Below are positions 1 through 44,230 of a stretch of 44,230 nt of DNA, one piece after another. A program made the translations under genes and the position numbers. The first letter of the stretch is position 1. Each line of letters starts with the position of its first letter. Source of the DNA: a virus; IMG/VR virus record IMGVR_UViG_3300027967_000013, positions 1 to 44,230 of that record; one strand, 5' to 3'. The notes below the pieces were generated by a model that saw only the letters and a list, made by a program, of their open reading frames with translations, ran no database searches and was not told where the DNA came from.

Positions 1-298
1 TTGCAGTTTCATAGATGACCTTTTTCCTTTGTTGGTTGATCTGCTTTTGTTGTTCCAGGTCCTTTACCAACCCCGCAACAAGATCTTGTTCGAACTGAAC
101 GGCCGATGTGAGATCGGTCATTTTTTCACGTTCGGCGTTCAAGTCTGCCGCGTATTGATTGTTGCTTTGCTCTAGCTGGCCTATGCGTTCATTGGCTTTC
201 TGAAAATCATCAGTAATGACGTTTAAGCGCCACAGCAAAACACCCGCGATGATGGCAAGAGCCATCAACGCAGCGATTAAAATTTTGTTTACCACCAT
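1..298 (-). CDS. Rz: Rz-like i-spanin, first copy, cut by window edge
   Basis: Inner-membrane spanin subunit, needed for outer-membrane disruption in lysis. The start ATG at 298 overlaps the stop of the upstream transglycosylase (ATGGTGGTAA). An N-terminal membrane anchor (residues ~5-22) is followed by a Gln/Glu/Asn-rich coiled coil. It is almost identical to the complete Rz at 42628-43002; I count four base differences over 306 bp. The reading frame is open to the window edge, so the C-terminus is missing from the window. The first four codons of a nested Rz1 (ATG at 12) are also present. If the window is a circle opened here, this copy would stop soon after the junction and its Rz1 would be degenerate (inference). 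Confidence 0.85.
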   Translation of the reverse strand, partial: MVVNKILIAALMALAIIAGVLLWRLNVITDDFQKANERIGQLEQSNNQYAADLNAEREKMTDLTSAVQFEQDLVAGLVKDLEQQKQINQQRKKVIYETA

Positions 299-900
299 AA
301 GGCACCACCGAATCGACGTTCGTAAAAGTGATGTATCTTTTCGACATAATCGAGGGTTTCGGCTGAATGGTGCCCCGTGACTTGGGGCAAACACGCGACA
401 ATATCGGAATATTCCATTTCGCCATTGCACAGCTTTTGTGAACGATACAAATGACCGCGACCCGCGTTATAACCTGCGGCGGCCAAATCGTAACGACTGC
501 CTGACGTTCGACCGTTAGCATTCCACCCGTTAAGGTTTTGGCGCATATAGTAAGCGGCGGCTTGAATGCTAAAACGAGCATCGCGGGGACTGGTCCCCAC
601 GGGAACGACTCCTTGTTTTTGCATATCGCCCCAAGTACCAGGCATAAACTGCCCGACTCCCGTCGCACCAACGGGGCTAACGGCGTTTGGGTTTAATCGT
701 GACTCTTGCCACAATTGAGCCCAACCTAGCCCCCAGTGATACTCTGGGATGTAACGGCGCCAAGCGGATTTGATTTGGCTATCGTATTTGTCAACCGACG
801 CCGAGCATAGAACCGGCGAGGTAACACACGCCAACAGCCCAAAGGCCGTAATAAAGCGCCGCACTAAGCGGTTCGCTTTTAATGGTTGGTAGGATTTCAT
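289..900 (-). CDS. Lytic transglycosylase (SLT-type) endolysin
   Basis: Peptidoglycan-cleaving enzyme of lysis cassette 1. The SLT/goose-lysozyme fold is seen in WQESRLNPNAVSPVGATGVG with likely catalytic Glu about residue 67, then GQFMPGTW and AAGYNAGRG. The N-terminus (basic, then LVRRFITAFGLLAC) is a signal or signal-anchor segment and could also be a lipobox. I prefer the ATG at 900, with AAAGGTAAAG upstream, over the adjoining GTG at 903. It overlaps the upstream membrane-protein gene by about 110 bp and the downstream Rz by 10 bp. The enzyme is unrelated to the GH24 lysozyme in the same position of the other cassette. Confidence 0.9.
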   Translation of the reverse strand: MKSYQPLKANRLVRRFITAFGLLACVTSPVLCSASVDKYDSQIKSAWRRYIPEYHWGLGWAQLWQESRLNPNAVSPVGATGVGQFMPGTWGDMQKQGVVPVGTSPRDARFSIQAAAYYMRQNLNGWNANGRTSGSRYDLAAAGYNAGRGHLYRSQKLCNGEMEYSDIVACLPQVTGHHSAETLDYVEKIHHFYERRFGGALWW

Positions 901-1006
901 CACGAAACTTTACCTTTGATAGCCAGTCACGGATCCGAAGCGCCAGAAAGACGGTGATCACCGCGACTACAAGATAAATAAGATTGAACAAAGTAACGTT
1001 GAGCAT
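791..1006 (-). CDS. Small two-TM membrane protein, possible holin or antiholin
   Basis: 71 aa with a hydrophobic segment at residues ~5-24, a charged middle and a second hydrophobic segment at ~48-68. Its ATG overlaps the stop of the upstream holin-like gene (TAATG). Its 3' third overlaps the transglycosylase gene in another frame. Size, topology and place between holin and endolysin suggest a lysis accessory such as a second holin or antiholin, but no family is recognised. Long overlap with the downstream start suggests translational coupling. Confidence 0.7.
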   Translation of the reverse strand: MLNVTLFNLIYLVVAVITVFLALRIRDWLSKVKFRDEILPTIKSEPLSAALYYGLWAVGVCYLAGSMLGVG

Positions 1007-1302
1007 TAAGCGGCCTCGTTAATAGGTCGGCGCTTTCTTTGATCGAAGTATTTCCATACGTCAAAAACGAGACGTACAACGACGACAGCGGCGCCGATTA
1101 TGGTAATGGCAGACCCAAAGGTCACACCGGGGAAAATATAGATAGACAAAATATCTATCGCTTGATGGGCAGTCGCTTCGGGTATGGATTGAGCTTGCGC
1201 GGTAGATTTAGCACTATAGGCAGATACGCCCGAACCGCCCCCATACGCAATAAGCCGACCTTTAAGTTCTGAAAACTTGTCGAATACTTTTTGCATAGGC
1301 AT
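1006..1302 (-). CDS. Putative holin of lysis cassette 1
   Basis: 98 aa. A polar N-terminal half precedes a hydrophobic stretch at residues ~50-82 (one long or two short TM segments), then a basic tail (FDQRKRR), a layout common among phage holins. There are two candidate starts, ATG at 1302 and at 1296. Neither has a clear Shine-Dalgarno, because the U-run of an intrinsic terminator lies directly before them. The gene is first in the cassette, followed by the 71-aa membrane protein, transglycosylase and Rz. Holin function is inferred from topology and position. Confidence 0.65.
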   Translation of the reverse strand: MPMQKVFDKFSELKGRLIAYGGGSGVSAYSAKSTAQAQSIPEATAHQAIDILSIYIFPGVTFGSAITIIGAAVVVVRLVFDVWKYFDQRKRRPINEAA

Positions 1303-1331
1303 AAAAAAAGCCCACTAATTGCTTAGTGGGC
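1303..1331 (-). terminator. Intrinsic terminator abutting the holin start
   Basis: On the minus strand GCCCACTAA, loop GCAA and TTAGTGGGC form a 9-bp perfect stem followed by seven T. The T-run ends exactly at the holin ATG. Expression of the cassette therefore probably needs read-through or antitermination. The second cassette has the same arrangement at 43924-43957. Confidence 0.85.
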
Positions 1332-1380
1332 GTCAAAATAGTTGGCTAGGTTTTGTGGCTTTAGGCTATTGGGGACGCAC

Positions 1381-1538
1381 TAAAACCACGTTATAAAAAA
1401 CAATAAAGCAATAGCTCAGAAAAAACAACATAAAGTTGTAAATATTTTCTTTATGTTGTTAGAAAGCCATTTTACATCACATTAAAAGGGCGTGACGTGT
1501 CCGCCTTTTGATTTTTCGCTATCGTGACACGTCACGCT
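1381..1538. repeat. 158-bp direct repeat R1 (partner at 44033-44190)
   Basis: Aligned by eye with 44033-44190, with five differences over 158 bp. It contains two long dyads. One has 12-bp arms AACAACATAAAG / CTTTATGTTGTT, followed on the minus strand by a T-run, so it is terminator-like. The other has arms GCGTGACGTGTC / GACACGTCACGC, perfect here and imperfect in R2. The repeat precedes a lysis cassette in both places. With the hairpin terminator at 1303-1331 it fills the gene-free stretch 1303-1531. It could hold a late promoter, regulatory sites or a recombination site; I cannot tell which. Confidence 0.9.
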
Positions 1539-1876
1539 GAACGATGCCGAGCATTAAACAAACCGGACAGCTTACCAGGACAAAGATCCCGAAGCGCTTT
1601 CCTGACTTTCTCTAAGCCACGTTGAAACGCCGAACTGTCTGCAGAAGAAATCACCGTGATTTTTTTCTCTCCAGACCGCAACCATGAATCCATCATGGCC
1701 TGATCGATCATGGATGATTTAGATACTCTTTGACGAGAGCCAATAAAACAAACTACCTTTTCACCAGGCTTTAATTGCATGACCGAATCCGAAGCAAATC
1801 GGCGGGGTAAGCGTTTTAGTCTCGGAATCATCCCCGCTTTCTTAGCGGCCACTTTTCGCTTATGACTTAATCTCAT
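1532..1876 (-). CDS. Hypothetical basic protein
   Basis: 114 aa, rich in Lys/Arg at the N-terminus (MRLSHKRKVAAKKAG). No family recognised. The middle (EKVVCFIGSRQRVSKSSMID) looks globular. The start at 1876 overlaps the upstream stop (ATGA), so it is probably translationally coupled to the RHH-like gene. Its stop codon lies inside repeat R1. It belongs to the run of small genes between the metallopeptidase and lysis cassette 1. Confidence 0.65.
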   Translation of the reverse strand: MRLSHKRKVAAKKAGMIPRLKRLPRRFASDSVMQLKPGEKVVCFIGSRQRVSKSSMIDQAMMDSWLRSGEKKITVISSADSSAFQRGLEKVRKALRDLCPGKLSGLFNARHRSA

Positions 1877-2241
1877 AGTAATAGCTCCTTGCTCTGACGG
1901 GTACGCCAACATTCGCTATCCCCTTCGAACGTTCCTTCGCACCCTTCTGGTAATGGTGATTTGCACTTACCACAACAACCTAATGCGGCCACTTGCTCCT
2001 GGTATCGCTTCGCGTCGTTTTGAATAAGTTCGCTTATGTATTCGCTTTCGCTGTAGGGCTCCCCCGATACCACTCGCGCACGGCGAAGGTGGTCCAACTG
2101 ATCACGCACGGATTGGGGAAGTTCGATTTCTAGTCGGCTTATACCAAGCGCGGCGCGACGGTCGGCCGCGGCTTTACGAGAACGACGCTTCCTTTCGGTG
2201 GCGGCCTTGGTTTTCTTATCATCACTCGAAGTCTTAGCCAT
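1873..2241 (-). CDS. Ribbon-helix-helix-like protein with Cys cluster
   Basis: 122 aa from MAKTSSDDKK. A basic N-terminus is followed by a segment fitting an RHH fold (SRLEIELPQSVRDQLDHLRR, residues ~34-53), then a helical stretch and a C-terminal Cys cluster (CCGKCK, CEGTFEGDSEC) that could bind zinc. It is probably a small DNA-binding regulator; its target is unknown. It overlaps the holin-like gene upstream by 8 bp and the next gene by 4 bp. Confidence 0.65.
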   Translation of the reverse strand: MAKTSSDDKKTKAATERKRRSRKAAADRRAALGISRLEIELPQSVRDQLDHLRRARVVSGEPYSESEYISELIQNDAKRYQEQVAALGCCGKCKSPLPEGCEGTFEGDSECWRTRQSKELLL

Positions 2242-2464
2242 TGCGCCCACTCTTAGCCAATAGCTGATCTTTCGGGATTTGGGACAGCACACGAAACACG
2301 GTCACTAATCCCGCTAACACAGCATTCAAGGCCGCGTAAACCGTAACGCTCATGTAATCCTGCAGCGCGGGCAAGGTCGCAATCAAAACATTCACCAAGG
2401 CGATAGCCATCGCACACTGAACACTCCACAGTTTCCACGCTTCTTTCCAATTACTGATCAACAT
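2234..2464 (-). CDS. Putative holin (DUF7940-like)
   Basis: 76 aa with an amphipathic start (SNWKEAWKLWSVQCAM) and two hydrophobic segments (residues ~17-33 and ~40-60), ending in a polar tail. The Trp-rich start followed by two TM helices resembles small phage holins annotated DUF7940. It overlaps the metallopeptidase gene by 14 bp. It would be a third holin-like gene in this element, separate from the two in the lysis cassettes. Family assignment is from memory of the pattern, not a search. Confidence 0.65.
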   Translation of the reverse strand: MLISNWKEAWKLWSVQCAMAIALVNVLIATLPALQDYMSVTVYAALNAVLAGLVTVFRVLSQIPKDQLLAKSGRNG

Positions 2465-3193: not shown

Positions 3194-3355
3194 TTATCCA
3201 AACAAGGCAGGGCCAACCTGGGCCATGTCATACAGATCTTCGCGCTTTCTTCCCTTCATGGCCGAACGCACGTTCGCCGCCCGAAGGCGCTTTCTTACCG
3301 TGTCGCGACTTAGGTCGAACGTGACGGCTATTTGGGTAATGTTCATGTATCGCAT
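3194..3355 (-). CDS. Stand-alone Nu1-like HTH domain (terminase small subunit paralogue)
   Basis: 53 aa that is almost only a winged-HTH. Its NITQIAVTFDLSRDTVRKRL and DLYDMAQVGPALF match NITRIAEAFGLHRDTVRKRL and DLYALADIGPALF of the terminase small subunit at 41848-42351, about 26 identities over ~49 positions by eye. It stops where the small subunit continues into its large-subunit-binding part. ATG at 3355 has GGAAAG seven bases upstream. A second ATG at 3346 overlaps the stop of the 36-aa ORF. It could bind cos-like sites, compete with TerS or regulate transcription (inference). Confidence 0.75.
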   Translation of the reverse strand: MRYMNITQIAVTFDLSRDTVRKRLRAANVRSAMKGRKREDLYDMAQVGPALFG

Positions 3356-3722: not shown

Positions 3723-4964
3723 TCACGCCGCGCAGACTCTTGGTTCATCTTGTTTGAATGATCTTGTCGATCTCGTCTCTGTCTCGTCGCGTAATTGCTG
3801 GAAACCTCGTTCATCTAACCACGCGTGATAACGGGCTAAGGCGTCGCGCATTGGACCCATGAATAACGATTGGTTATAGGCTTTGTCTTGTTTGCTCTGG
3901 GCATGGTTTAACAGGCGCTCACTAACGGAATTGTCTATCCCTAAATCGGTGCAAATGGTCTTTAAGGCTTTGCGGCAATCGTGGGCGCTCCACTCTTTAT
4001 CACTGACGGTCTGAATGTGTTTTCTTGATGTGCTGTAACTTAAGGATCGAGCGTGACCGTGCCCAGGGAACAGGAACACCCCGCGATAACCGGTTTCGAT
4101 TTGCCAGGTCCGATAATCCTGTAACCATTGTGCTACTGGGTCCGTGATGGGTAGAACGTGCCAATCCCCTGTTTTGGTGTCCGCCATTGGTAAACGCCAT
4201 TGACGGCCCACCATGTCGATGTGGCTCCACTTCGCGGCTAAGGTTTCGGTGATACGGGTGCCATGACACAGCAACATGACAACCAAGCATTGCGTGACCG
4301 GATCACTTCCTAAGAGGGCTTTAAACAGTGGTTCGATGGCCGTGGCCAACAATCGCCCGTCTTTGGGTTCAATCGATACGGAAATGAAATCCGAAAACAC
4401 CACGCCCGCCAATGGGTTGGACTCGATGCGCCCTAACTTATCGGCTTGGTTAAATGCTTGTTTTAATACGGATAACACCGACTTAACGGTCGCTAATGAA
4501 TGGCTTTCTTGCAGTGGCCAGATCAATGCGTCGTCCAATACTTGACGGTTCAGCGCTTCGATGGCCAAGTCGCCCAGGTGTGGCAATAGGTGGCACTTGA
4601 TGGCGCTTTTGATGGTGGCTTTACGGGTTTTCGAACGGTGGGCGTCTTTCTCGATGCGGCCTTGATACCAGTTCAGCACATCGCTCACGCTCTCGAACTC
4701 GGTGTGTAATAGATTGCTTTTGGTGTTAATAGCCAGCATGGCCAGCTTTTCGGGTAAGACTTTCTTCACGGCTTTGACGGTTAACACGGGCCAGTAACCG
4801 AGCAGATACCAGCGATCACGACGCACCACATACCAAGAGCCCGTTTCACGATTTTGATGAAAGCGAAAGCGCAGCGGGAACGCCGGATCGCGCAAGGTTC
4901 GCACGGTGCCGGTGATTTCGCTTTTGATGTTCGTTTCTGAAAAAGTAATGACTTTGGTTTTCAT
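3723..4964 (-). CDS. int: Tyrosine recombinase (phage integrase)
   Basis: About 413 aa from MKTKVITFSE; a longer reading from 4994 is possible but lacks a better start. The catalytic set is visible in the C-terminal domain: Arg in CHGTRITE, Lys in ADTKTGD, HxxR in AHDCRKAL, His in LLNHA and the Tyr nucleophile in KAYNQS. The N-terminal ~100 residues form an arm-binding region and a core-binding domain follows (~residues 95-185). It could integrate the element or resolve plasmid dimers; co-existence with RepA/ParA leaves both open. It lies within the leftward early operon downstream of the Q-like gene. I could not identify attP. Confidence 0.93.
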   Translation of the reverse strand: MKTKVITFSETNIKSEITGTVRTLRDPAFPLRFRFHQNRETGSWYVVRRDRWYLLGYWPVLTVKAVKKVLPEKLAMLAINTKSNLLHTEFESVSDVLNWYQGRIEKDAHRSKTRKATIKSAIKCHLLPHLGDLAIEALNRQVLDDALIWPLQESHSLATVKSVLSVLKQAFNQADKLGRIESNPLAGVVFSDFISVSIEPKDGRLLATAIEPLFKALLGSDPVTQCLVVMLLCHGTRITETLAAKWSHIDMVGRQWRLPMADTKTGDWHVLPITDPVAQWLQDYRTWQIETGYRGVFLFPGHGHARSLSYSTSRKHIQTVSDKEWSAHDCRKALKTICTDLGIDNSVSERLLNHAQSKQDKAYNQSLFMGPMRDALARYHAWLDERGFQQLRDETETRSTRSFKQDEPRVCAA

Positions 4965-4974
4965 GGTGCCCCGT

Positions 4975-5055
4975 TTAAGGCGCCAACCACTCAAACAACC
5001 AGTACACGGTGGGGAAGCTGACGCCTAATAAAATGAACTCTTGGATTTTTATCAC
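4975..5055 (-). CDS. Possible 26-aa membrane peptide
   Basis: GTG-initiated ORF encoding MIKIQEFILLGVSFPTVYWL followed by a short Trp-containing end. It is hydrophobic throughout, like many tiny phage membrane peptides. There is no clear Shine-Dalgarno and it overlaps the 5' extension of the integrase frame, so it may be chance. Otherwise 4965-5083 holds only AT-rich spacer. Confidence 0.25.
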   Translation of the reverse strand: MIKIQEFILLGVSFPTVYWLFEWLAP

Positions 5056-5083
5056 TTCATTATTTCTTTAAATCTTTATTTCT

Positions 5084-5245
5084 TTAAAGGTCGAATAACT
5101 CACGCAAACGGCGGCGTTCTTGAATGTCTTCAATCTGGCGGCGCGTTGATACGGCGTTGTTGTCTACTTTAAAGCGTTGTTTCACGCGCTCAGGTTCGCG
5201 GATTTGATGGTTATGCACATGGCGCGGATCAGACGTTTTAAACAT
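5084..5245 (-). CDS. Small hypothetical charged protein (53 aa)
   Basis: Begins MFKTSDPRHVHNHQIREPER and ends in an Arg/Glu-rich helix (STRRQIEDIQERRRLREL). GAAGGAAATAACC before the ATG gives a ribosome-binding site. It directly follows the Q-like gene with a 2-bp gap. No family recognised; a small regulatory or DNA-binding role is possible. Confidence 0.55.
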   Translation of the reverse strand: MFKTSDPRHVHNHQIREPERVKQRFKVDNNAVSTRRQIEDIQERRRLRELFDL

Positions 5246-5247
5246 GG

Positions 5248-5616
5248 TTATTTCCTTCTCTTACTCACGGACTCAATCACATGATTGCGGGCCGTCTTTA
5301 AACGGCGTTTATAGGTGGGCAAGCTGATACCCTGACGATGGGCGCGTTTCAGTTGCGTGTTGTCGAGTGGGTTGCCTTGCGCGCCGTATTCGACCCGAAA
5401 GACCGTCGCCGCCGCTTGATTCTCTGCCGCCAAACGTAACACCGCCGATTCGACATCGGCTTCGATGCAATCTAAAGCAGGACCCCCGCCGCTCCCGTAA
5501 TTCATCACCCCTTGACACTCGATCAGCTTGCCCAAAATCGATTGGCCACCGGGCACCAATGAACCGCTATGCACCCAGCGCGCCCATTGGTCAAAGATGT
5601 CGTCCCAGTTGCCCAT
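5248..5616 (-). CDS. Q-like antitermination protein
   Basis: 122 aa. The overall pattern, WDDIFDQWARWVHSG at the start, a middle helix (ALDCIEADVESAVLRLAAEN) and a C-terminal HTH-like end (LKRAHRQGISLPTYKRRLKT), resembles the short Q-type antiterminators of lambdoid and related phages. Such proteins let RNA polymerase read through terminators into late genes. It lies just upstream, in transcription order, of the lysis and morphogenesis genes, which contain many terminators placed before gene starts. Assignment is by pattern; another small sigma-like regulator remains possible. Confidence 0.6.
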   Translation of the reverse strand: MGNWDDIFDQWARWVHSGSLVPGGQSILGKLIECQGVMNYGSGGGPALDCIEADVESAVLRLAAENQAAATVFRVEYGAQGNPLDNTQLKRAHRQGISLPTYKRRLKTARNHVIESVSKRRK

Positions 5617-6893: not shown

Positions 6894-7541
6894 ATGAGAC
6901 AAGAGATAAAAGAAATCATTGGCGACCGACTTCGCTCACAACGATTAAGCAAGGGTTGGACCGCAAAAGAAGCCGCTCGGGCCGCTACCGCTGTAGCCGG
7001 TACAAACATATCACCAGGACGCTGGCAAAACTGGGAATGCGCTTCCCGTGCGCCTAGTTTGGAATTATTCCCTTACCTGGCGAAAACCCTCGATACCACG
7101 CCGGAATACTTGGCGGGTTGGAAAAATGAGCCAGGGATAGGCGTCGAAACCAATAAATACATACTGGCCAACCTTGAGCCAGGCGGCAGCAACGACGACA
7201 TTGCATTTAATGTCGAAGCGTTAAACCGTCACGGATTACATGAGCACAAGCTCAAACTGATCACCGTTAATGATGACGCCATGAGCAAACACTTTAGTCG
7301 TGGCAATCTGGTATTAGTTGACCGCTCAGATACCGACATCAAGGGCGCCGGTATTTACGCCCTAGAAAGTGATGGCGCGGTGTTCTTGCGTTATGTTCGT
7401 CGTGAACCTGGCATCGGCTTTGTGATGTATGCCGACGATGACAAACACGCCCCAGAACGCACGTTCACCAGTGATGACTTTGAACGCATTCAGGTGATAG
7501 GCCGTTACGTGTTTAAAGCCTCTTGGGCCACCATAAACTGA
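6894..7541 (+). CDS. CI-like phage repressor with degenerate S24 domain
   Basis: 215 aa. An N-terminal HTH (residues ~8-75, AKEAARAATAVAGTNISPGR) precedes a LexA/CI-type C-terminal domain (residues ~118-210). In active S24 domains the nucleophile lies in a GDSM-type motif. Here it is NDDAM, with Ala129 at the Ser position and Arg166 (FLRYV) where Lys is expected, and I see no Ala-Gly or Cys-Gly cleavage site. It should therefore bind DNA and oligomerise but not self-cleave with RecA (inference). It is divergent from the Cro-like gene and followed by a terminator. Confidence 0.85.
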   Translation: MRQEIKEIIGDRLRSQRLSKGWTAKEAARAATAVAGTNISPGRWQNWECASRAPSLELFPYLAKTLDTTPEYLAGWKNEPGIGVETNKYILANLEPGGSNDDIAFNVEALNRHGLHEHKLKLITVNDDAMSKHFSRGNLVLVDRSDTDIKGAGIYALESDGAVFLRYVRREPGIGFVMYADDDKHAPERTFTSDDFERIQVIGRYVFKASWATIN

Positions 7542-11795: not shown

Positions 11796-11844
11796 CACTT
11801 TCAAGAATTAACGATTTCTTTAATTAATGAAAGGACGCCAACCA

Positions 11845-12486
11845 ATGGGAAAAAAAATAGGTGTAGTTTCGCAAAAAGGCGGCGTGGGTAAATCCACGGT
11901 TGCGCGCGCCCTCGCGACCGCTTACGCAAAATTCGAATGGGATGTAAAGATCGCAGATTTAGACATCAACCAATCAACCAGCTACATGTGGCAAAAACGC
12001 CGCCTAGCTTCTGAAATTGAGCCGGTTGTTTCTGTTGAATGTTTCGGCAACGTTGGCCAAGCACTTAAACAAGCGGACAACTACGATGTGTATATCTTCG
12101 ACGGCGCCCCACACGCTACCAAAGCAACATTAGAGATCGCCCATGCTTCGGACATGGTCATCATTCCTACGGGTCTTGCGCTCGATGATATGGAACCTTG
12201 CGTCATCCTAGCGAACGACTTAGTCAAACAAGGCGTCAATAGAGATAAGATTGTCTTTGTATTCTGCCGAACCGGTGACAGCAAAGCCGAACTACAAGAT
12301 TCATTTGATTACATGGCCCAAACACCCTACAAGGCGATCGAGGCTCCATTACAAGAGAAAACCGCTTTAAGACGCGCAAGCGATAAAGGTCAAGCCGCTA
12401 TCGAATGCCAATACAAAGGCCCACGCGAACAAGCGGAAAGCATGGTCCAGGCTTTAATTGACAACCTTAACGAATTAACGAAATAA
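11845..12486 (+). CDS. parA: ParA-type partition ATPase (short, type Ib)
   Basis: 213 aa from MGKKIGVVSQ. The deviant Walker A is KGGVGKST (residues 11-18), the A' motif has DLD (38-40) and Walker B lies in YDVYIFDGAP. It lacks the N-terminal HTH of long ParA proteins, as in type Ib systems with a small RHH partner. SD AAAGGA lies nine bases before the chosen ATG. It should drive segregation of the plasmid prophage together with the RHH gene 22 bp downstream. Confidence 0.92.
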   Translation: MGKKIGVVSQKGGVGKSTVARALATAYAKFEWDVKIADLDINQSTSYMWQKRRLASEIEPVVSVECFGNVGQALKQADNYDVYIFDGAPHATKATLEIAHASDMVIIPTGLALDDMEPCVILANDLVKQGVNRDKIVFVFCRTGDSKAELQDSFDYMAQTPYKAIEAPLQEKTALRRASDKGQAAIECQYKGPREQAESMVQALIDNLNELTK

Positions 12487-15637: not shown

Positions 15638-17002
15638 TTAATATTCGTCGTATGACGGCCCGGCAAAGTTATCGAATCGGGAATACTGACCTTGGAATGT
15701 CAGCCTTACATTACCGATCGGACCATTCCTTTGCTTACCGATGATGATTTCAGCCGTTCCTTTATCTTTGCTATCTTCGTGATAAACCTCATCGCGGTAA
15801 ATAAACATAATAAGATCGGCATCTTGCTCAATCGATCCCGACTCTCTCAAGTCTGAATTGATAGGACGCTTATCGGGGCGGTTCTCCAACGTTCGATTTA
15901 ACTGGGATAACGCCACAACGGGCACATTAAGTTCTTTTGCCAAAGCTTTTAATGAACGGCTTATCTCGGCAATCTCTAACGTTCTGTTACCCTGCAAGCC
16001 TGGTACTTGCATCAATTGAAGGTAATCAACCATTATCATCGATAGACCGCCATGTTCGCGGGCCATGCGGCGCGCTTTAACTCTTAGTTCTGTTGGGGTA
16101 ATCCCTGATCTATCGTCAATGAAAATATTATCTCGCTCCATTAACATGCCAGTCGCGCCCGATATTTTCGCCCAATCTTCATCATCAAGCTGGCTCGTTC
16201 TAATTTTGGTCAAATCAACACGAGACAAAGAAGAAAGCATTCTCATCATTAACTGTTCAGACGGCATTTCAAGAGAAAAAATCAATACAGGCTTATCGTT
16301 CTCCATTGCCGCGTTTTCACACAAGTTCATTGCAAAGGTTGTTTTTCCCATCGATGGACGGGCGGCGACGATAATCAGATCAGAATTTTGTAGCCCTGCC
16401 GTTTTCTTGTTTAGATCAGTGAAGCCCGTTGATAAGCCGGTTACACCATCCTGGGCCGTGTGAAGTAATTCTTCCATTCGCCCTAACGTCTTTTCGAGCA
16501 CATTGCCTAAGCTCTGCATACTATCGACGCTAACAGAATGTTGGTTCGAAATTGCCAACACCTTGCTTTCAATTGAATCGATCAACTCAGTTGATGAAAC
16601 CTCTTTCGAGTCATAAGCAGAAGAAACGATTTCATTACCGACGGATATAACGTTTCTTAATACGGCTTTCTCTCTCACGATTTCAGAATAAGCGGTAATA
16701 TTCGCGGCGCTTGGTGTGTTCTTGGCTAAATCTGCCAAGTAAGCAAAGCCGCCGACGTCTTCTAGCTTTTCCTGCTTTTCTAGCAACTCAGAAAGTGTGA
16801 TAAGGTCCAAAGGTTGACCCGCTTCTAATAACTTCCTAGACGCATCAAAAATCACGCGGTGGTAACGTAAATAGAAATCAGATCCCGACACTTTGTCGGA
16901 CACGTCATCCCACCTACTATTATCCAGCAACAAACCACCCAAGACAGATTGTTCGGCTTCTTGTGAATAAGGAACTTTTTTCAATAATTCTTCGTTTTGC
17001 AT
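15638..17002 (-). CDS. dnaB: Replicative DNA helicase, DnaB family
   Basis: 454 aa, the usual DnaB length. The N-terminal domain begins YSQEAEQSVLGGLLLDN. The RecA-like domain has Walker A ARPSMGKTT (about residue 215), Walker B SMIMVDYLQLM and SQLNRTLENR/DLRESGSIEQDADL motifs, ending GKQRNGPIGNVRLTF. The ATG at 17002 is preferred over a TTG at 17026. It unwinds the fork during element replication. No DnaC-like loader is evident; the wHTH gene upstream may take part. Confidence 0.95.
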   Translation of the reverse strand: MQNEELLKKVPYSQEAEQSVLGGLLLDNSRWDDVSDKVSGSDFYLRYHRVIFDASRKLLEAGQPLDLITLSELLEKQEKLEDVGGFAYLADLAKNTPSAANITAYSEIVREKAVLRNVISVGNEIVSSAYDSKEVSSTELIDSIESKVLAISNQHSVSVDSMQSLGNVLEKTLGRMEELLHTAQDGVTGLSTGFTDLNKKTAGLQNSDLIIVAARPSMGKTTFAMNLCENAAMENDKPVLIFSLEMPSEQLMMRMLSSLSRVDLTKIRTSQLDDEDWAKISGATGMLMERDNIFIDDRSGITPTELRVKARRMAREHGGLSMIMVDYLQLMQVPGLQGNRTLEIAEISRSLKALAKELNVPVVALSQLNRTLENRPDKRPINSDLRESGSIEQDADLIMFIYRDEVYHEDSKDKGTAEIIIGKQRNGPIGNVRLTFQGQYSRFDNFAGPSYDEY

Positions 17003-17018
17003 CTCTAATTCACAGCCT

Positions 17019-17357
17019 CTAATCAAAAATTGTTATTTGTTCATCGTCTTCGGTTTGAATGTCGAGCTCCGCGCCGGTGCGTTCTCGATAAATCTTTGCA
17101 GCATCGTGACGGCCTAGCCTGGTTAATTGCATTGCTAAACTTAAATTTCGATAGCGACCCATTTCAATCAATCCACGACTTGCCAGAACATGAAGCCCTT
17201 TTCGAAAATTCGACGGGTCCAAAATGCCATCACGCGAACTTTCCACCATAGCCCGAACCTTTGACACACCAATCGGACCCACTTTGTTTTTGCTTTCCAG
17301 AATAGCTAACACAAATAACGCATCTTTCTGGTTTTTAGATAATCGGTTTTTCTTCAT
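17019..17357 (-). CDS. Winged-HTH protein upstream of dnaB
   Basis: 112 aa. LSKNQKDALFVLAILESKNK and the following GPIGVSKVRAMVESSRDG, FRKGLHVLASRGLIEMGRYR fit a winged helix-turn-helix. It ends 16 bp before dnaB. It may be a replication-initiation or helicase-loading accessory, or a regulator; no specific family recognised. Confidence 0.6.
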   Translation of the reverse strand: MKKNRLSKNQKDALFVLAILESKNKVGPIGVSKVRAMVESSRDGILDPSNFRKGLHVLASRGLIEMGRYRNLSLAMQLTRLGRHDAAKIYRERTGAELDIQTEDDEQITIFD

Positions 17358-17921: not shown

Positions 17922-17999
17922 CGTGTTATCTCGGTTTTGGCCTTGGCACCTTGCCCGGCCTTCGAGATAAATAATAGGACTTTTCGTCCTATCTTGCAA
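17922..17999 (-). promoter_or_regulatory. Promoter/operator/leader cassette A
   Basis: On the minus strand TTGCAA, a 17-bp spacer and TATTAT form a strong sigma-70 promoter. The spacer carries the operator AGGACGAAAAGTCCT. The transcript should begin at or near a hairpin with arms TTATCTCG / CGAGATAA (17926-17970) enclosing GGCC...GGCC. GAGA in the 3' arm, eight bases before the ATG, is the only Shine-Dalgarno candidate and would be paired. Confidence 0.75.
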
Positions 18000-18012
18000 G
18001 TATTTTCTTTCT

Positions 18013-18321
18013 TTAATTCTTTATTTCTTTATCCCAAATAAGCCCAAATCCGGCACGCTCTGCCAGAATAGCCCACGCCGCGAAAGGGATTCGCTGCATG
18101 TTCGTTTTACGCCCTTCGGCTTTTGCTTTCTCAACCTCTACAGGATCAAAAGCGCACCATTTACGAACGCTTCTACCATCTGAAACCCCAACCAATGCCG
18201 CGGCCTGACTTCCCGTTAAACCGCAAAGCCTTAAGATTTCGCGAACTTCTTCGCCTGTCGGTTGCGCCCAATCTAAACCAAAAGGGGTTAGTGTTTCTGG
18301 GCGAATAATAGCATTTTTCAT
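18013..18321 (-). CDS. XRE-like HTH protein of plasmid type
   Basis: 102 aa. EVREILRLCGLTGSQAAALV and GVSDGRSVRKW form an HTH-like core, and PFAAWAILAERAGFGLIW is a conserved C-terminal signature in related plasmid proteins I recognise. It is probably a small DNA-binding regulator. It lies between two promoter/leader cassettes and is read from cassette B. Confidence 0.65.
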   Translation of the reverse strand: MKNAIIRPETLTPFGLDWAQPTGEEVREILRLCGLTGSQAAALVGVSDGRSVRKWCAFDPVEVEKAKAEGRKTNMQRIPFAAWAILAERAGFGLIWDKEIKN

Positions 18322-18361
18322 AATGGCACCATTTGGGGCGGCACTGCCGCCCTCTTTATCG

Positions 18362-18592
18362 TTAGTTGGCCAACAAGGTGCTTACGCCTCGCCAGCTTTT
18401 ATATTGTTTTTCGACGGCTTCAAGGCTGGCGAACTGTTTAATCCCCAGGCCACGATAAGCGCGACGACTGGCATTATCAGTAAACATTTCCCAATATTCA
18501 CCCAAAGCATCCTCTTTGTGGCTAAGAGTCATCTTATTACCACGCGTTTCTAAATAGAATGTTTTGCTGTCTAACTGAATGATTGCTTTCAT
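18362..18592 (-). CDS. Small conserved plasmid-type protein
   Basis: 76 aa, with LETRGNKMTLSHKEDALGEY and a conserved-looking RRAYRGLGIKQFASLEAVEK. Function unknown. Its ATG follows cassette B directly. Related small proteins occur on many proteobacterial plasmids as far as I recall. Confidence 0.65.
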   Translation of the reverse strand: MKAIIQLDSKTFYLETRGNKMTLSHKEDALGEYWEMFTDNASRRAYRGLGIKQFASLEAVEKQYKSWRGVSTLLAN

Positions 18593-18670
18593 CGATTTAT
18601 CTCGGTTTTGGCCTTGGCACCCTGCCCGGCCTTCGAGATAAATAATAGGACTTTTCGTCCTAAATTACAA
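18593..18670 (-). promoter_or_regulatory. Promoter/operator/leader cassette B
   Basis: TTGTAA, 17 bp, TATTAT, with the same AGGACGAAAAGTCCT operator in the spacer. The leader (18597-18641) has arms TTATCTCG / CGAGATAA and is nearly identical to cassette A. Spacing from leader to ATG is preserved. Confidence 0.75.
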
Positions 18671-18731
18671 GCAATTACTTTCTTTAATTCTTTATTTCGT
18701 TAATTAAAGCCGAACAAGTCGGCTTTTTAAC

Positions 18732-19139
18732 TTATGCAGATAAGCGAACACGGCGCGTAAAATCCACCGCAATCACATTAGATTCCGCCCTGACCACCTC
18801 TAATGGCTCTTGAGGCGCATTAATGGACTCAGCCAAGCCGTAACACTCTAAAGCCTCGTTAAGCGCTTCCTGATTGAAATAAGCCGTAAAATGGTCGCAA
18901 AAATGATAAGGGCCACTAACGTTAAACTCATCATCACGATAAAAGCACGTAGCATCGTGATAATTGTTTTCATCTTTAAGCCATGCGATCACTTCTTCTG
19001 CAGTGGCCAGGTGATAGTCGTTCTCGTAGCTATCATCAATTTGCATTGATGATACGCGGCCAATAATGCCAACGGCACTATTTAAAATAGATTGGATCTT
19101 CTTGGTAGCATTTTTACGAATCGTTTTGTAAGCAGTCAT
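18732..19139 (-). CDS. Hypothetical plasmid-type protein
   Basis: 135 aa from MTAYKTIRKNATKK. The middle (ATAEEVIAWLKDENNYHDAT, then FYRDDEFNVSGPYHF) suggests a small globular domain, and the C-terminus has a basic tail. No family recognised. It is transcribed from cassette C and is the first gene of the leftward replication/accessory operon. Confidence 0.65.
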   Translation of the reverse strand: MTAYKTIRKNATKKIQSILNSAVGIIGRVSSMQIDDSYENDYHLATAEEVIAWLKDENNYHDATCFYRDDEFNVSGPYHFCDHFTAYFNQEALNEALECYGLAESINAPQEPLEVVRAESNVIAVDFTRRVRLSA

Positions 19140-19217
19140 CGAATTATCTCGGTTTTGGCCTTGGCACCTTGCCCGGCCTTTGAGATAAATAATAGGACTT
19201 TTCGTCCTAACTTGCAA
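19140..19217 (-). promoter_or_regulatory. Promoter/operator/leader cassette C
   Basis: TTGCAA (19212-19217), 17 bp, TATTAT (19189-19194), with the AGGACGAAAAGTCCT operator in the spacer. Leader 19144-19188 matches cassettes A and B except that one base of the outer stem differs. Confidence 0.75.
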
Positions 19218-19667
19218 CTATTCTTTTTTGCGCCCAGAAGCGCACCCACAGAACTTACGTTCAAATGCGGACTAGCCCCGCAGGGATAAGCAAAGCACGA
19301 AGTGCAAGCGAAGCACCAAGCCGCTCGATGCGGTTCGATAGACCACGATACTTAATCGGCGCGGTTAGTTACACAGGACGCCGTTAAATCTCGCCTTACC
19401 CTTCTGCTAGACCTCGCGAAGCGAAAGAAGGCTAGGTGATAGGTTTAAATTAAATACGAAAGGTTAAGGATTGGTTCCACTAGATAATCGTAATACTCGA
19501 AAGGATGACGGTCGGATGACAAAAGGAATGTTCAGCGCAGCCAGCTATTGCGATAAGTTGAATTGAGAGTGATTGATTAAAGCTGGCTGTTGGGGCCCGT
19601 TAAATTGTGCCCACAATGGCTTAAGTGATCGTTGTAGCTTAATCACAATTTAATGGGAGGTATTTTT

Positions 19668-36744: not shown

Positions 36745-37239
36745 TTATCGATTGGCGTAAATGGCTTTAGTGTTAAGAGACGCGGTTTTCTTGACCTTGT
36801 CCGTCACATGGCGAGTTTGGTCGCCACTTTCATCACTTGAGGCTTTCGCTTCATGGATGGCTTGACCGACCATCTTGATTGGGTCGTTCATATGAGCGGC
36901 CAACGTGTCGTAACTGCCTGACAAGCCCGAAGCGGCTAAGGTATCTTTCAGGCTCTTAGCCATCTTGATTTGACTTTCGGCACTCTCTAGCGTGACACCG
37001 TCACCAAGTAGCGAAGCCGATAGCGAAGGAATGCCCGCTTCCTGGCATTGTTGAACCAGACTTGCCGCATTATCGACGGCCATCGCTGGCGACTCTTGTA
37101 ACGCTTCAAGCACATCAGGGCGATGCTCTGTTAATGCGCCTACAATCACCTGGGCGCTCACTTCTTCCGAAGCTGGTAACGAGAATGTCACTTCGTTATC
37201 GCTACCACCTTGCGCCGCGGCATTGGTATTTGTTGTCAT
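36745..37239 (-). CDS. Internal-start scaffold, Nu3-like
   Basis: 164 aa from MTTNTNAAAQGGSDN, in the same frame as the protease. AAGAGGA lies 12 bases before the ATG. In lambda the scaffold Nu3 is made from an internal start of C; the position here corresponds. Expression of the separate product is inferred. Confidence 0.6.
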   Translation of the reverse strand: MTTNTNAAAQGGSDNEVTFSLPASEEVSAQVIVGALTEHRPDVLEALQESPAMAVDNAASLVQQCQEAGIPSLSASLLGDGVTLESAESQIKMAKSLKDTLAASGLSGSYDTLAAHMNDPIKMVGQAIHEAKASSDESGDQTRHVTDKVKKTASLNTKAIYANR

Positions 37240-38082
37240 GGCGGGTGTTTTCCTCTTACTTAGTTCGGCGATAACGCCTTCCAGACTCCCAAGTTCGTGA
37301 GCCATACCTTTATCGACTGCAGACTGACCAATCAGGACAAAGCCACAACCGAAATCGTTAAGCACCTTTTCACGGGTGACATTCATGTTTCGAGCAACAC
37401 GATCGATAAACACATCGGATAGCTGATCAAGGTGTTGCTGATAAGCTTTTCGACCTTTATCGGTCGTTGGGTCTAAACGCTTATCCGGCGACTGACTCGA
37501 TACGATTTCAATCGTTTCGTAACGGTCATCTTCTGACGCCTTACGGATTTGCATACTTAGCACCGTACCAATCGAGCCCACATCGCCCGTTGCATCGATG
37601 ACAATCTTGTCGGCAGCCGAGGCGGACCAATACGCGGCGGAACATGCCGAACCGCCCACATAAGACACAATCGGCTTTTGGCCGCGCGCTTTGTAGATCA
37701 TTTCGGCGAATTCGTGGGTCCCTTTTACATGACCGCCACCGCTGTCATACACCAAAACAATCCCTTTCACTTTTGGCGAGTCCAATGCTTGATTGAACTC
37801 TTTCGCAAGTGTTTGGGTTGACGTTCCGCCGCATATGTCTTCAAACATGCCCGCGTAACGGGTGATCACGCCATTAACATGGATAAGAGCGACACCATTT
37901 CGGATTTCCATCCCTGGGGTGATTTTCTTCCCATTCCGAGCCGCGACCGCTTCAATCAATGATTCGGACAACTCAAGGGTTGCGCGATCACGCCCTGCAA
38001 TATTCCCCATCACCGTTAACGTGCGCGAATCCATCGCCCACGCTTCGGCCATCAAGAAATCAAGCATGAATTTCTTAGCCAT
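36745..38082 (-). CDS. C: Head maturation protease with scaffold (lambda C/Nu3-like)
   Basis: 445 aa. The N-terminal S49/SppA-like domain has VALIHVNGVITRYAGMFEDI and SYVGGSACSAAYWSASAADK, the nucleophile probably Ser148. A C-terminal scaffold part (from ~residue 282) is helical with a basic end. It removes scaffold and matures the portal in the prohead. Its first codons overlap the portal end by 8 bp. Confidence 0.93.
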   Translation of the reverse strand: MAKKFMLDFLMAEAWAMDSRTLTVMGNIAGRDRATLELSESLIEAVAARNGKKITPGMEIRNGVALIHVNGVITRYAGMFEDICGGTSTQTLAKEFNQALDSPKVKGIVLVYDSGGGHVKGTHEFAEMIYKARGQKPIVSYVGGSACSAAYWSASAADKIVIDATGDVGSIGTVLSMQIRKASEDDRYETIEIVSSQSPDKRLDPTTDKGRKAYQQHLDQLSDVFIDRVARNMNVTREKVLNDFGCGFVLIGQSAVDKGMAHELGSLEGVIAELSKRKTPAMTTNTNAAAQGGSDNEVTFSLPASEEVSAQVIVGALTEHRPDVLEALQESPAMAVDNAASLVQQCQEAGIPSLSASLLGDGVTLESAESQIKMAKSLKDTLAASGLSGSYDTLAAHMNDPIKMVGQAIHEAKASSDESGDQTRHVTDKVKKTASLNTKAIYANR

Positions 38083-39787: not shown

Positions 39788-39797
39788 ATATCACTCT

Positions 39798-41858
39798 TTA
39801 GATGCTGGCACGACGACGACGGCGCTTTGGTGGCGCGACCGTTTCGCCGTGACTGGTTATCAATTCCGCACTTTCAGCGATTGGCACCGCCCAAGCGGGT
39901 GGGTTATCCCAGTCGATCCGTTCGGCTTTCTTCTCGTAAATACACGCCCAGTTATAAACAAACAGATCGAGCGATTCGTTTCGCTTAGATATTTTGCGCC
40001 ACTTGCCATCACTGCCCCGTTCTTCGGCGGTTAATTCGTCAAAGAACGATTCCGGCAACCAATCAGGAAAACGAACATAACGGCGCCCTGGTTGCTCACG
40101 TTCTAGCGAGGCGGACACCGTGTCCTTTATCCGGTCGGTATTCAGCAAGTAAACCGGAACATCACCGGCAACCGTTGTTTTTCGGTCGCTTCGTTTGGTG
40201 TTGTCTGGATACGATTTTAAAATCATGGGACCAGTACCGCGGCCCTTGATCAGCATGAATTTACGGGCTAACCCTTCTCGCTTAATTAGGCGATAAAATT
40301 CATATGCGTTATCGGTTACGCCATCCTCACCGCCAGAATCACAAGAGGTCAGCATTACGGGCATTCGGCGACCGCTTCCATCTTCAAGTTCGTATGACTT
40401 GGTGATGACCTTGTCGATCAGCAATTCCCAATCTTCCAAGTAAGCAGCCGGATTAACCCGAACGAATTTATCCGGGTCATCCGAGTGCAACCGCTTCGAT
40501 TTTTGAATCGAAAAACGGTCAATGACTTGGTGTTCCAAATCGGGACCCCAAGCCAATACCGCAACATCAAAACGGGCCGTTTTTGCACCCGCCTGGACAT
40601 CCACGGCAGCGGTTAAGAACCGCGCCCAATCTGGCACAACACGCACACCTAAATCGGTGCGGCGCTCCATCAGCTTGGAACTGCTGCGGTCCTGGTTACG
40701 CGGCGGCGTAAACGGTTTGCCTTGGTCGGTGTTGACCGTAGCTTGAAGATCTTCGAGATTGCCGGTTTGCTCATATTGAGCCAACGCAGCCAAGTATTTA
40801 TAAACAAGTTCGTTCCAGGTCTGGAACGCAGCCGTGGGGCCTTTTTGCCAAAAACTGGCGATATGGGTATCACGGCGCTCACCGGTGACGGTGCCGTTTT
40901 GGTCTATTTGGCAGCCTTCGGGCAACCAAATACCGGACTTGTTTTTCGCAAACTTTAACGAGTCGCCTTTATAGGGCGTCGTTTCAAGCATCATTGATCC
41001 GCAATGCGGACACCCCATAAACACCTCTTTCGAGGCTTTCGCTGGGTCGGGTTCGTCACGGTCCCAATGCAATAACGGGAAATCCGGTTCGAACCACTCA
41101 CCACAATCGAAGCATTGCCAGTGAAACAAACGGCGATCACCTTGATTAAACAAGGATAAAATCCCCTGTGTCGGGGGCGCTTCGTGGGGCGACGATGGGC
41201 GATAATTGGGATCGGTTATGTGAAAGCCTGGCGACCCTTCCGCTAGTGTCATGCCTGACGACATAAACGTTTGGGTTCGCTTTGAGGCCAGCAAGAACCC
41301 CGAACCTTCGCCATCAACATCGAGCGGCATTCGGTCATAGTCGGTTAGTGCGACATATTTCCAGTCGGACGATGCAAAGACGTTCTTTGATGGCCAGCCA
41401 ATTTTTAAAAAGTTACCGGCTCTAAATAGCTTGTCGTGTACGTTGTTATCATGCGCCCTTGGCGACATGGCCGCGCGTATTTCAGCACTGGCATTAAACT
41501 CACGCGACAAACGTTTTTTTGAATATTCCGCGGCTTTCTCTTGGGTGATTTGCACTAAGAGAAAATCAGCCGGGTTATTAACAATCGTGTCGCAAACCCA
41601 GCCATCGACTAGACTCACGGTTTTAGACGTTCGCGCCGGACCGACAAAGACCACCGCGCGATATTTACGCGACTTTAGGCAATCCATAGGCTCATGGATA
41701 TACGGCACTAGATCCCCATCCCAAGGGACCATCGAGCCGCCTTGATCAACGTGCAATAAACGGCGGGCGCTTTGGGATACGGGCTCACGATTGGGCGGCC
41801 GAACTAAACTAGCGACATCACGGCGGACTTTGCCCGGCTGTGCATAGCTAAGTTGCAT
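39798..41858 (-). CDS. A: Terminase large subunit, lambda A-like
   Basis: 686 aa from MQLSYAQPGK, chosen because GAGGTT lies eight bases upstream. The ATPase domain has the Walker A-like GPARTSKT (residues 73-80) and the C-terminal part holds the nuclease domain (TSCDSGGEDGVTDNAYEFYR). It cuts and translocates DNA into proheads. It overlaps the TerS stop. Confidence 0.95.
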   Translation of the reverse strand: MQLSYAQPGKVRRDVASLVRPPNREPVSQSARRLLHVDQGGSMVPWDGDLVPYIHEPMDCLKSRKYRAVVFVGPARTSKTVSLVDGWVCDTIVNNPADFLLVQITQEKAAEYSKKRLSREFNASAEIRAAMSPRAHDNNVHDKLFRAGNFLKIGWPSKNVFASSDWKYVALTDYDRMPLDVDGEGSGFLLASKRTQTFMSSGMTLAEGSPGFHITDPNYRPSSPHEAPPTQGILSLFNQGDRRLFHWQCFDCGEWFEPDFPLLHWDRDEPDPAKASKEVFMGCPHCGSMMLETTPYKGDSLKFAKNKSGIWLPEGCQIDQNGTVTGERRDTHIASFWQKGPTAAFQTWNELVYKYLAALAQYEQTGNLEDLQATVNTDQGKPFTPPRNQDRSSSKLMERRTDLGVRVVPDWARFLTAAVDVQAGAKTARFDVAVLAWGPDLEHQVIDRFSIQKSKRLHSDDPDKFVRVNPAAYLEDWELLIDKVITKSYELEDGSGRRMPVMLTSCDSGGEDGVTDNAYEFYRLIKREGLARKFMLIKGRGTGPMILKSYPDNTKRSDRKTTVAGDVPVYLLNTDRIKDTVSASLEREQPGRRYVRFPDWLPESFFDELTAEERGSDGKWRKISKRNESLDLFVYNWACIYEKKAERIDWDNPPAWAVPIAESAELITSHGETVAPPKRRRRRASI

Positions 41859-42351
41859 CGGGTTCAACCTCTAATAATTTGATGTAGAGTTGAGCGCGTA
41901 GCTCATCACTGACCCGTTCCAATTGTTCTAACTGGTCGGCGGTAAATAATCGGCGGCGTTCCATGTTGTCGGGCAATGACTCACACCAACTGACCACCGC
42001 TTTTAGGGTTTCCGCCAGATCAAGACGATAATCACTATCTGGGATTAACTCGCCGATCTCCGTTTGGAACTTTAAGCGTTCGCGTTCGGACTGGAAAAAA
42101 TCTTTCCTATCCTTGGGCGCCATCTTATTGGGATTGTAATCATCCTCGCTTTTATTGGTGGCTTCGGCTGAAAACAGCGCCGGACCAATATCCGCTAGGG
42201 CGTACAAATCCACACCTTTGGATTTTTTAACGGGCTTAACTTGGTTTTCTTTTAAACGCTTGCGAACCGTGTCGCGGTGCAAGCCGAACGCCTCCGCTAT
42301 CCGAGTAATATTCCAAGCGTAGGCGTCATTGATTGAACTCACGGTCCCCAC
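41848..42351 (-). CDS. nu1: Terminase small subunit, Nu1-like
   Basis: 167 aa with GTG start and GAGGTG upstream. The N-terminal wHTH (NITRIAEAFGLHRDTVRKRL, residues ~14-33, to GPALF at ~58) binds cos. The C-terminal helical part (ERERLKFQTEIGELIPDSDY, LFTADQLEQLERVSDELRAQ) would bind the large subunit. Its DNA-binding domain is duplicated at 3194-3355. Confidence 0.92.
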   Translation of the reverse strand: MGTVSSINDAYAWNITRIAEAFGLHRDTVRKRLKENQVKPVKKSKGVDLYALADIGPALFSAEATNKSEDDYNPNKMAPKDRKDFFQSERERLKFQTEIGELIPDSDYRLDLAETLKAVVSWCESLPDNMERRRLFTADQLEQLERVSDELRAQLYIKLLEVEPDAT

Positions 42352-42422
42352 AAAAACACCTCTTAAGATAAGGTGATCCGAAGCGTGAAGGGCAGCGGTT
42401 AAAGGTTAACGTTTGTGGTCCC

Positions 42423-42716
42423 CTATTGCTTCGGATCAAATTGGTTTGGCTGGATGTGCTTTTCTTTCCAAGCGCGAATAAGTTTGAATCGCTTGTCACA
42501 TTGAATAATGACGTCGATTAAGTTGTCGTTATCGACGGCCAGTTCGGGATAACTGGTCCCTTTGAATGGGGGAACCAAGCAATCCACGGTTAAGGCTTCG
42601 GGCGGATAACGATAAATGATTTCGGTTTTAACGGGGGGCGGTAGTTCTTTGCTGGCGCAACCGAATAAGCTCATCAGGCAAAGACAAATCACACTCGCTT
42701 TGGCTTGCAGTTTCAT
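42423..42716 (-). CDS. Rz1: Rz1-like o-spanin lipoprotein
   Basis: 97 aa. A signal peptide ends at lipobox SLFGC, and a Pro-rich stretch (ELPPPVKTEIIYRYPPEAL) follows, typical of Rz1. It starts inside Rz in another frame and extends beyond it. It is the outer-membrane partner of the Rz at 42628. The 71 bp between it and terS hold no gene. Confidence 0.88.
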   Translation of the reverse strand: MKLQAKASVICLCLMSLFGCASKELPPPVKTEIIYRYPPEALTVDCLVPPFKGTSYPELAVDNDNLIDVIIQCDKRFKLIRAWKEKHIQPNQFDPKQ

Positions 42717-43002
42717 AGATGACCTTTTTCCTTTGTTGGTTGATCTGCTTTTGTTGTTCCAGGTCCTTTACCAACCCCGCAACAAGATCTTGTTCGAACT
42801 GAACGGCCGATGTGAGATCGGTCATTTTTTCGCGTTCGGCGTTCAAGTCTGCCGCGTATTGATTGTTGCTTTGCTCTAGCTGGCCTATACGTTCATTGGC
42901 TTTCTGATAATCATCAGTAATGACGTTTAAGCGCCACAGCAAAACACCCGCGATGATGGCAAAAGCCATCAACGCAGCGATTAAAATTTTGTTTACCACC
43001 AT
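42628..43002 (-). CDS. Rz: Rz-like i-spanin, second (complete) copy
   Basis: 124 aa from MVVNKILIAALMAFAIIAG, SD AGGTG. N-terminal anchor and coiled coil (RIGQLEQSNNQYAADLNAER), ending RLRQQRTTAPR. Nearly identical to the truncated copy at 1-298. Works with Rz1 downstream. Confidence 0.9.
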   Translation of the reverse strand: MVVNKILIAALMAFAIIAGVLLWRLNVITDDYQKANERIGQLEQSNNQYAADLNAEREKMTDLTSAVQFEQDLVAGLVKDLEQQKQINQQRKKVIYETASQSECDLSLPDELIRLRQQRTTAPR

Positions 43003-43010
43003 AAGGCACC
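42705..43010. repeat. 306-bp direct repeat covering Rz (partner at 1-306)
   Basis: By eye only four mismatches to 1-306. Identity ends just upstream of the Rz ribosome-binding region, exactly where the two different endolysin genes begin. Confidence 0.9.
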
Positions 43011-43600
43011 TACGAACCATTACTAGAAAGGCAAATTTCCGTTTCTTTTTCACGGCGAGAAATCAAGCCAGGCAGTTTCACACCGCCACCGTAAACCCAA
43101 CGGTTTAATTGGTGACAGGCAAGATCATAATGACCCGTTCGGATTAAATGCCCGATGCGGGTTTCGGTCTTGTCTCGGTTATATCGAAACCGAGTGCAGC
43201 CGGTATTAAAAATAAACGAGGTGAACGCGTCGATTTGACCTTGTGACAATTCAGGCTTTCCCTTCGTGTCATAAAGGCAACGCTCGGACGCTTGAATATT
43301 TTTAATCCAGTCCTTAGCGATTTGCTCATCACTGGCGGGGGATTGAATGACCCCGTGAGTGTTCCCGATCCCGTTCGTAATCAAACCCGAAGGGCAACGG
43401 TACGGATCGCGGCGACATCCCTCAGCGTTCCCAATCAAATCAAGCGCGCGGGGGGAAATCTGAACATCTGCAATCAATTGGCCGTCAATTTCAACGGCGC
43501 CAATTGATGAGGTGTAAGCAGGATCGGTGACAGACACGCCACCGGTGATCAATGCGGCGATGGCTGTCACCGAACATAGCAATTTTTTAAACTTACTCAT
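43010..43600 (-). CDS. GH24 lysozyme-type endolysin
   Basis: 196 aa. An N-terminal hydrophobic stretch (residues ~5-22) acts as signal or signal-anchor. The catalytic segment is NAEGCRRDPYRCPSGLITNG. Glu60 and Thr75 fit the T4 lysozyme E-D-T spacing, but the Asp position is Cys69. GIGNTHG follows. It is the muralytic enzyme of cassette 2. Confidence 0.92.
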   Translation of the reverse strand: MSKFKKLLCSVTAIAALITGGVSVTDPAYTSSIGAVEIDGQLIADVQISPRALDLIGNAEGCRRDPYRCPSGLITNGIGNTHGVIQSPASDEQIAKDWIKNIQASERCLYDTKGKPELSQGQIDAFTSFIFNTGCTRFRYNRDKTETRIGHLIRTGHYDLACHQLNRWVYGGGVKLPGLISRREKETEICLSSNGS

Positions 43601-43878
43601 TAACGGTCATCCTCAGCAAGAAGGGCAGACACCGAAGTTCGACCTTTTAGCTTTGTTTCAAGTAAGCGGTGATTTTTCTCTTTGTAGTACCAGGTCAGAA
43701 TAAAAGAAAAGATACCGAGAATAATGCCGACAATGACACCAAGCTCATTCACTGAAAAAGCACCAAAGAAGGCAGCAATACCACCAAAAAAAGCGGTTAG
43801 GCGATCACCTTTAAAAGCAAAGAATGAGGCGAACACCCCCGCTAAGGCTGTAAGCCATAATCGTTTTTTTTCAAGCAT
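43600..43878 (-). CDS. Putative holin of lysis cassette 2
   Basis: 92 aa from MLEKKRLWLTALAGVFASFF. Two to three hydrophobic segments (FASFFAFKGDRLTAFFGGIA; LGVIVGIILGIFSFILTWYY), basic C-terminus. An alternative ATG at 43923 lies at the foot of the terminator. The next gene, the lysozyme, starts at its stop. Unrelated in sequence to the cassette 1 holin. Confidence 0.75.
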   Translation of the reverse strand: MLEKKRLWLTALAGVFASFFAFKGDRLTAFFGGIAAFFGAFSVNELGVIVGIILGIFSFILTWYYKEKNHRLLETKLKGRTSVSALLAEDDR

Positions 43879-43923
43879 TTTTGCACCATTGAATAGGCTT
43901 CCAAAGAGGCGGGCTTTAGGCAT

Positions 43924-43957
43924 AAAAAAAAGCCAATCGCAAAAAAGCAATTGGCTT
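43924..43957 (-). terminator. Terminator before lysis cassette 2
   Basis: On the minus strand AAGCCAA..TTGGCTT stem followed by eight T, whose end abuts an ATG of the holin frame, as in cassette 1. Confidence 0.8.
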
Positions 43958-44032
43958 ATAGGTGTGAAAATTGGGATTCACTAACAACGTCAGTTGGCTA
44001 GGCATAGTCTTAATGGGTCACTTCAAACGCAA

Positions 44033-44190
44033 TAAAACCACGTTATAAAAAACAATAAAGCAATGGCTCATGAAAAACAACATAAAGTTGTAAATATTTT
44101 CTTTATGTTGTTGGAAAGCCATTTTACATCACATTAAAAGGGCGTGACGTGTCCGCCTTTTGATTTTTCGCTATCGTGACCCGTCACGCT
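44033..44190. repeat. 158-bp direct repeat R2 (partner at 1381-1538)
   Basis: Same dyads as R1: AACAACATAAAG/CTTTATGTTGTT intact, and the GCGTGACG dyad slightly degenerate (one base change in an arm). It precedes lysis cassette 2. With the terminator it fills 43924-44230, where no gene is seen. Confidence 0.9.
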
Positions 44191-44230
44191 TGGGCGGTTC
44201 AATTTTTCGCTTAGGAAGCCAACTAGGGCG

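Follow-up and report, generated by a model that had tools for sequence, protein, structure and literature searches.

The apparent duplication of the lysis module in this virus contig, whose whole length of 44,230 bases is referred to below as the window, is almost certainly a product of the assembly, as judged from sequence comparison. Very probably, the two ends of the window represent alternative versions of one locus in closely related phages, which the assembler would have strung together. The variation itself is real and is ordinary lysis-module mosaicism within a phage-plasmid family of the Vibrionaceae type, but it does not constitute a two-enzyme phage. The finding removes a false duplication from which the contig would be annotated as a phage with two endolysins, and it describes a family of phage-plasmids where endolysins of unrelated chemistry take each other's place at one locus.

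Both cassettes of the original prediction are found in the record, one near each end and close to where they had been placed, the one with the GH23 transglycosylase at 289–1538 and the one with the GH24 lysozyme at 43010–44190 (Table 1). Their flanks are near-identical, as had been claimed (306/312 positions or 98% between 1–312 and 42705–43016, and 158/164 or 96% between 1375–1538 and 44027–44190). Comparison of the cassette cores reveals no protein similarity and a DNA likeness limited to chance 11–14-mers, which confirms that enzymes and holins are unrelated. Holin, endolysin, Rz and Rz1 are arranged in this order on one strand, as in modules of the lambdoid type, the holin of cassette 1 (H1) being assigned by position; its PHROGs matches involve only families of unknown function. 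The GH23 enzyme is 77–82% identical in the relatives L006, L007 and L011, and 79% identical in the Vibrio campbellii plasmid NZ_CP050481. The predicted content of cassette 1 holds for leader, terminator, putative holin, membrane protein and transglycosylase, but not for Rz, which is cut at the contig end: because the contig starts within this gene, cassette 1 has neither a complete Rz nor an Rz1 in the window.

Table 1. Features of the two lysis cassettes, their neighbours and the contig ends (window coordinates).
Feature	Position	Strand	Evidence or remark
Assembly-fork 127-mer, left contig end, inside Rz	1..127	-	exact match to 42705-42831
Cassette 1 Rz, 5' part	1..298	-	protein 96% identical to 42628-43053; cut at contig end, complete once joined to L004
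Cassette 1 endolysin, GH23/SLT lytic transglycosylase	289..903	-	Pfam PF01464 E=1.2e-14
Cassette 1 small membrane protein, 71 aa	791..1006	-	79-89% identical, between H1 and GH23 in L006, L007, L011
Cassette 1 putative holin H1, 98 aa	1006..1302	-	position and conservation; phrog_27892 E=2e-21
Cassette 1 intrinsic terminator	1310..1331	-	T-run adjoins holin start codon
Cassette 1 conserved leader, promoter/antitermination-like	1375..1538	-	96% identical to 44027-44190; block kept in all 11 aligned leaders
Variable upstream gene, type I allele	1532..1912	-	L007 about 70% identical; L005, L006, L026 have other types
phrog_536 'transcriptional regulator', conserved neighbour, candidate late regulator	1873..2292	-	PHROG E=4e-30; syntenic in relatives
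Terminase small subunit (TerS), conserved neighbour, other side of locus	41848..42351	-	phrog_141 E=8e-51
Rz1 spanin lipoprotein (LysC/Rz1)	42423..42716	-	Pfam PF23793 E=1e-14
Rz spanin, complete copy, likely start 43002	42628..43053	-	phrog_214 E=2.5e-7
Second occurrence of fork 127-mer	42705..42831	-	L004 ends at 42831
Cassette 2 endolysin, GH24 phage lysozyme	43010..43600	-	Pfam Phage_lysozyme PF00959 E=3e-24; 100% identical in L005
Cassette 2 holin, HP1 family	43600..43923	-	PF16080 E=7e-10 (match over 43600-43950); start at conserved ATGCCT (codon context)
Cassette 2 intrinsic terminator	43930..43957	-	
Cassette 2 conserved leader	44027..44190	-	96% identical to 1375-1538
Different upstream gene (type II allele), 3' part, cut by contig end	44191..44230	-	identical to L005 4122-4161, within L005 ORF 3832-4218

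The left end of the contig points to a fork in the assembly. Bases 1–127 match 42705–42831 exactly and the first mismatch occurs at position 128; given the observed divergence of 2%, a first mismatch at exactly this base has a probability of about 0.0016. A separate contig, L004, is 99.95% identical to window positions 37088–42831 and has its own end at 42831. Contigs of metaSPAdes that are broken at multi-path points share ends of the length of the maximal k, and in COBRA the largest k applied to real data is 127 (PMC10914622). The window resembles such de Bruijn breaks in that its end shares exactly k (127) bases with the alternative path and then departs from it, and differs from them in that one contig contains both branches of the fork, hence the appearance of an internal duplication (PMC10914622). 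This argues strongly that the left contig end is a de Bruijn fork at k = 127, a usual maximum for metaSPAdes (PMC10914622). The right end (44230) shows no 127-base self-fork, the longest exact repeat of its last 127 bases being 67. When cassette 1 is connected to L004 via the common 127-mer, a full Rz results, with the C-terminus of the other copy, together with an intact Rz1. L004 may originate from another sample, because long exact stretches are common to it and the window; near its position 2519 (window 40311–40312) a two-base deletion relative to the window affects the terminase large subunit gene, corresponding either to a frameshift or to an assembly error. As a simple diagnostic, a repeat at a contig end that has precisely the length of the assembler's k and then breaks off in a mismatch indicates alternative alleles and not paralogues.

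The same succession of genes recurs in relatives (integrase, small HTH gene, regulator, upstream gene, leader, lysis genes, Rz, Rz1 and TerS), where alternative alleles are found at the syntenic position, as for a single exchangeable locus. The nine relatives with either enzyme at this locus, surveyed for one or two cassettes, each have one: GH23 only in four (L006, L007, L011 and the closed V. campbellii plasmid NZ_CP050481) and GH24 only in five (L005, L008, which is a 13.7-kb fragment, L009, L010 and the Aliivibrio phage vB_Alvi_H905, PP986400), with both enzymes in none. Three of the nine are closed circular records from isolates, and the H905 record, with GH24 only, is complete and circular. 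L009 gives the same hit as NZ_CP049915, a closed plasmid of Vibrio sp. HDW18 (GH24), which was also the sole match in a scan of genome contigs for relatives; the HDW18 genome shows two weak GH23-like matches on its contig C1, the phage match being on C3. H905, NZ_CP049915 and NZ_CP050481 share with the window the syntenic locus and a TerS 74–86% identical, and differ from it by their single cassette (GH24, GH24 and GH23, respectively). A further fragment, L026, has GH24 at the syntenic locus, and neither enzyme was found, at the search sensitivity used, in Vibrio phage PE002A or in three Aeromonas/Edwardsiella plasmids that are more distant. In L005 (about 97% identical), a search of all 40,225 bases recovered cassette 2 alone and no GH23. 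Past the equivalent of window position 44230, its sequence continues into a 128-codon upstream gene and, 214 bases further, meets the window region 1837–2044; since L005 thereby links 44230 to this region, its GH24 cassette occupies the place of the GH23 cassette in the window. In NZ_CP050481, the region just upstream of the GH23 cassette has genes on the opposite strand (L061 966–2724) with annotations as polymorphic toxin type 15 and GAD-like domain proteins; they are accessory cargo at the same place.

The proposal that homologous ends permit cassette exchange is supported by these alternating alleles and by recombinant combinations of the enzymes with the upstream gene. The product of the latter (1532–1912) has an N-terminus common to the compared relatives (M-R/K-L/I-SH-K/R-RK...), the remainder being variable; a scan for relatives with this protein gave no matches, though homologues are present in the loci of relatives examined separately. 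The upstream type of the window accompanies GH23 at the left end of the window and in L007, and a 40% identical relative of it accompanies GH24 in L008. The nearly identical pair of L011 and H905 (94%) is split between GH23 and GH24, as are L006 and L026, which have another upstream type in common (47%). Because all upstream-type/enzyme combinations occur across the relatives, the comparison indicates recombination between upstream gene and lysis genes, probably running through the conserved leader. Moreover, L010 pairs an H1-type holin with GH24; this combination may be non-functional because of the in-frame TAA in its lysozyme gene (4755–5339). All four upstream-type/enzyme combinations and the holin pairing of L010 would also fit ongoing cassette exchange in a single population, with recombinants formed in the sample itself, in place of two stable strains. 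We regard this as unlikely, since the relatives differ by 3–30%, which makes the observed exchanges old and carries no timing within the sample.

In lambdoid phages the lysis module consists of holin, endolysin and Rz/Rz1 behind a late promoter and a terminator. The mosaicism of this module in temperate lambdoid phages resembles the present case in its one locus with exchangeable, unrelated holin/endolysin sets, conserved flanks and adjoining terminase genes; here, in contrast, the alleles are GH23 and GH24, the setting is a Vibrionaceae phage-plasmid family, and holin and endolysin are separable, as in L010. In lactococcal phages, the swapping of endolysins by homologous recombination was shown experimentally (PMC9371310). 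The likeness lies in unrelated endolysins exchanged via homologous flanks with the holin carried along, whereas that work was experimental and concerned a Gram-positive host, the exchange proposed here being deduced by comparison (PMC9371310).

A true tandem duplication, in which a circular or circularly permuted phage would possess two full modules with different enzymes, could account for the presence of both cassettes on one contig and for their near-identical ends, and was the core of the original prediction. We consider it highly improbable: the contig starts with the exact 127-mer of a fork, none of the nine relatives with either enzyme has both, which also speaks against the supposed attack on the cell wall by two chemistries in one element, and the sequence of L005 beyond 44230 is the upstream gene, next to cassette 1, and not Rz. 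Treating the window as a circle was rejected, as closure of 44230 to 1 truncates Rz two residues past the junction (ending ...YETATP) and loses Rz1. The two modules are thus very probably not contiguous on one molecule, and the alternative already named in the original prediction, that the ends do not join or that one cassette is an artefact, is what was found, as far as the letters alone can tell. There is likewise only a very slim chance that some source genomes carry both cassettes transiently, as intermediates of exchange via leader and Rz, in which case GH23 and GH24 would briefly be made by one phage. That cassette 1 is a decaying inserted copy, as its lack of Rz1 and of the end of Rz could suggest, is hardly credible, the absent parts being cut exactly at the contig end and existing in L004 beyond the same 127-mer, and H1, the small membrane protein and GH23 being intact and 75–89% conserved at the same locus in other phages.

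Under the preferred reading, namely alternative alleles of one locus joined in assembly, each phage would have a single lysis locus between the regulator gene (1873–2292) and the terminase small subunit, built from a variable upstream gene, the conserved leader, a terminator, holin and endolysin, and Rz/Rz1. It would hold either the GH23 allele (H1, small membrane protein and transglycosylase) or the GH24 allele (HP1-type holin and lysozyme), and recombination within Rz and the conserved leader presumably swaps these alleles. The sample would have contained two or more strains that differ in their allele, the left end of the contig stemming from the GH23 allele of one, with its first base at the fork (k = 127) inside Rz, and the right end from the GH24 allele of the other.

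Alignment of the leaders bears on the possible control of this locus. A block ending TATAACGTGGTTTTA is conserved in 11 of 11 aligned leaders, and in ten of them a predicted hairpin and T-run directly precede the holin ATG; in L008, the remaining one, GCCAATCGCACTTGTGTGGTTGGC precedes a T-run and ATT. A simple scan of the leaders gave no match to the sigma-70 consensus, and Pfam yielded no Q family, the upstream gene at 1873–2292 matching only the phrog_536 'transcriptional regulator'. As a working model, leader and terminator would form a lambda-like pR'-tR' arrangement for late control under a Q-like antiterminator, and lysis would follow the customary sequence of holin, endolysin and spanins.

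Further features concern the family as a whole. Beside the integrase, the window encodes a 53-residue protein (3194–3355) that most relatives also have at this position and that resembles only the N-terminal HTH part of TerS (54% identical; phrog_141 E=1e-11); it may be a TerS-related regulator or excisionase. An S24 CI-like repressor (6894–7541), a ParA-like partition protein (11827–12486) and a DnaB-like helicase (15638–17026) are also encoded; because of these genes and of the circular Vibrio plasmids among the closest relatives, the family appears to consist of phage-plasmids that have an integrase as well. Finally, within 17926–19220, short direct repeats of 25–40 bases are shared among approximately 17926–17991, 18597–18663 and 19145–19210.
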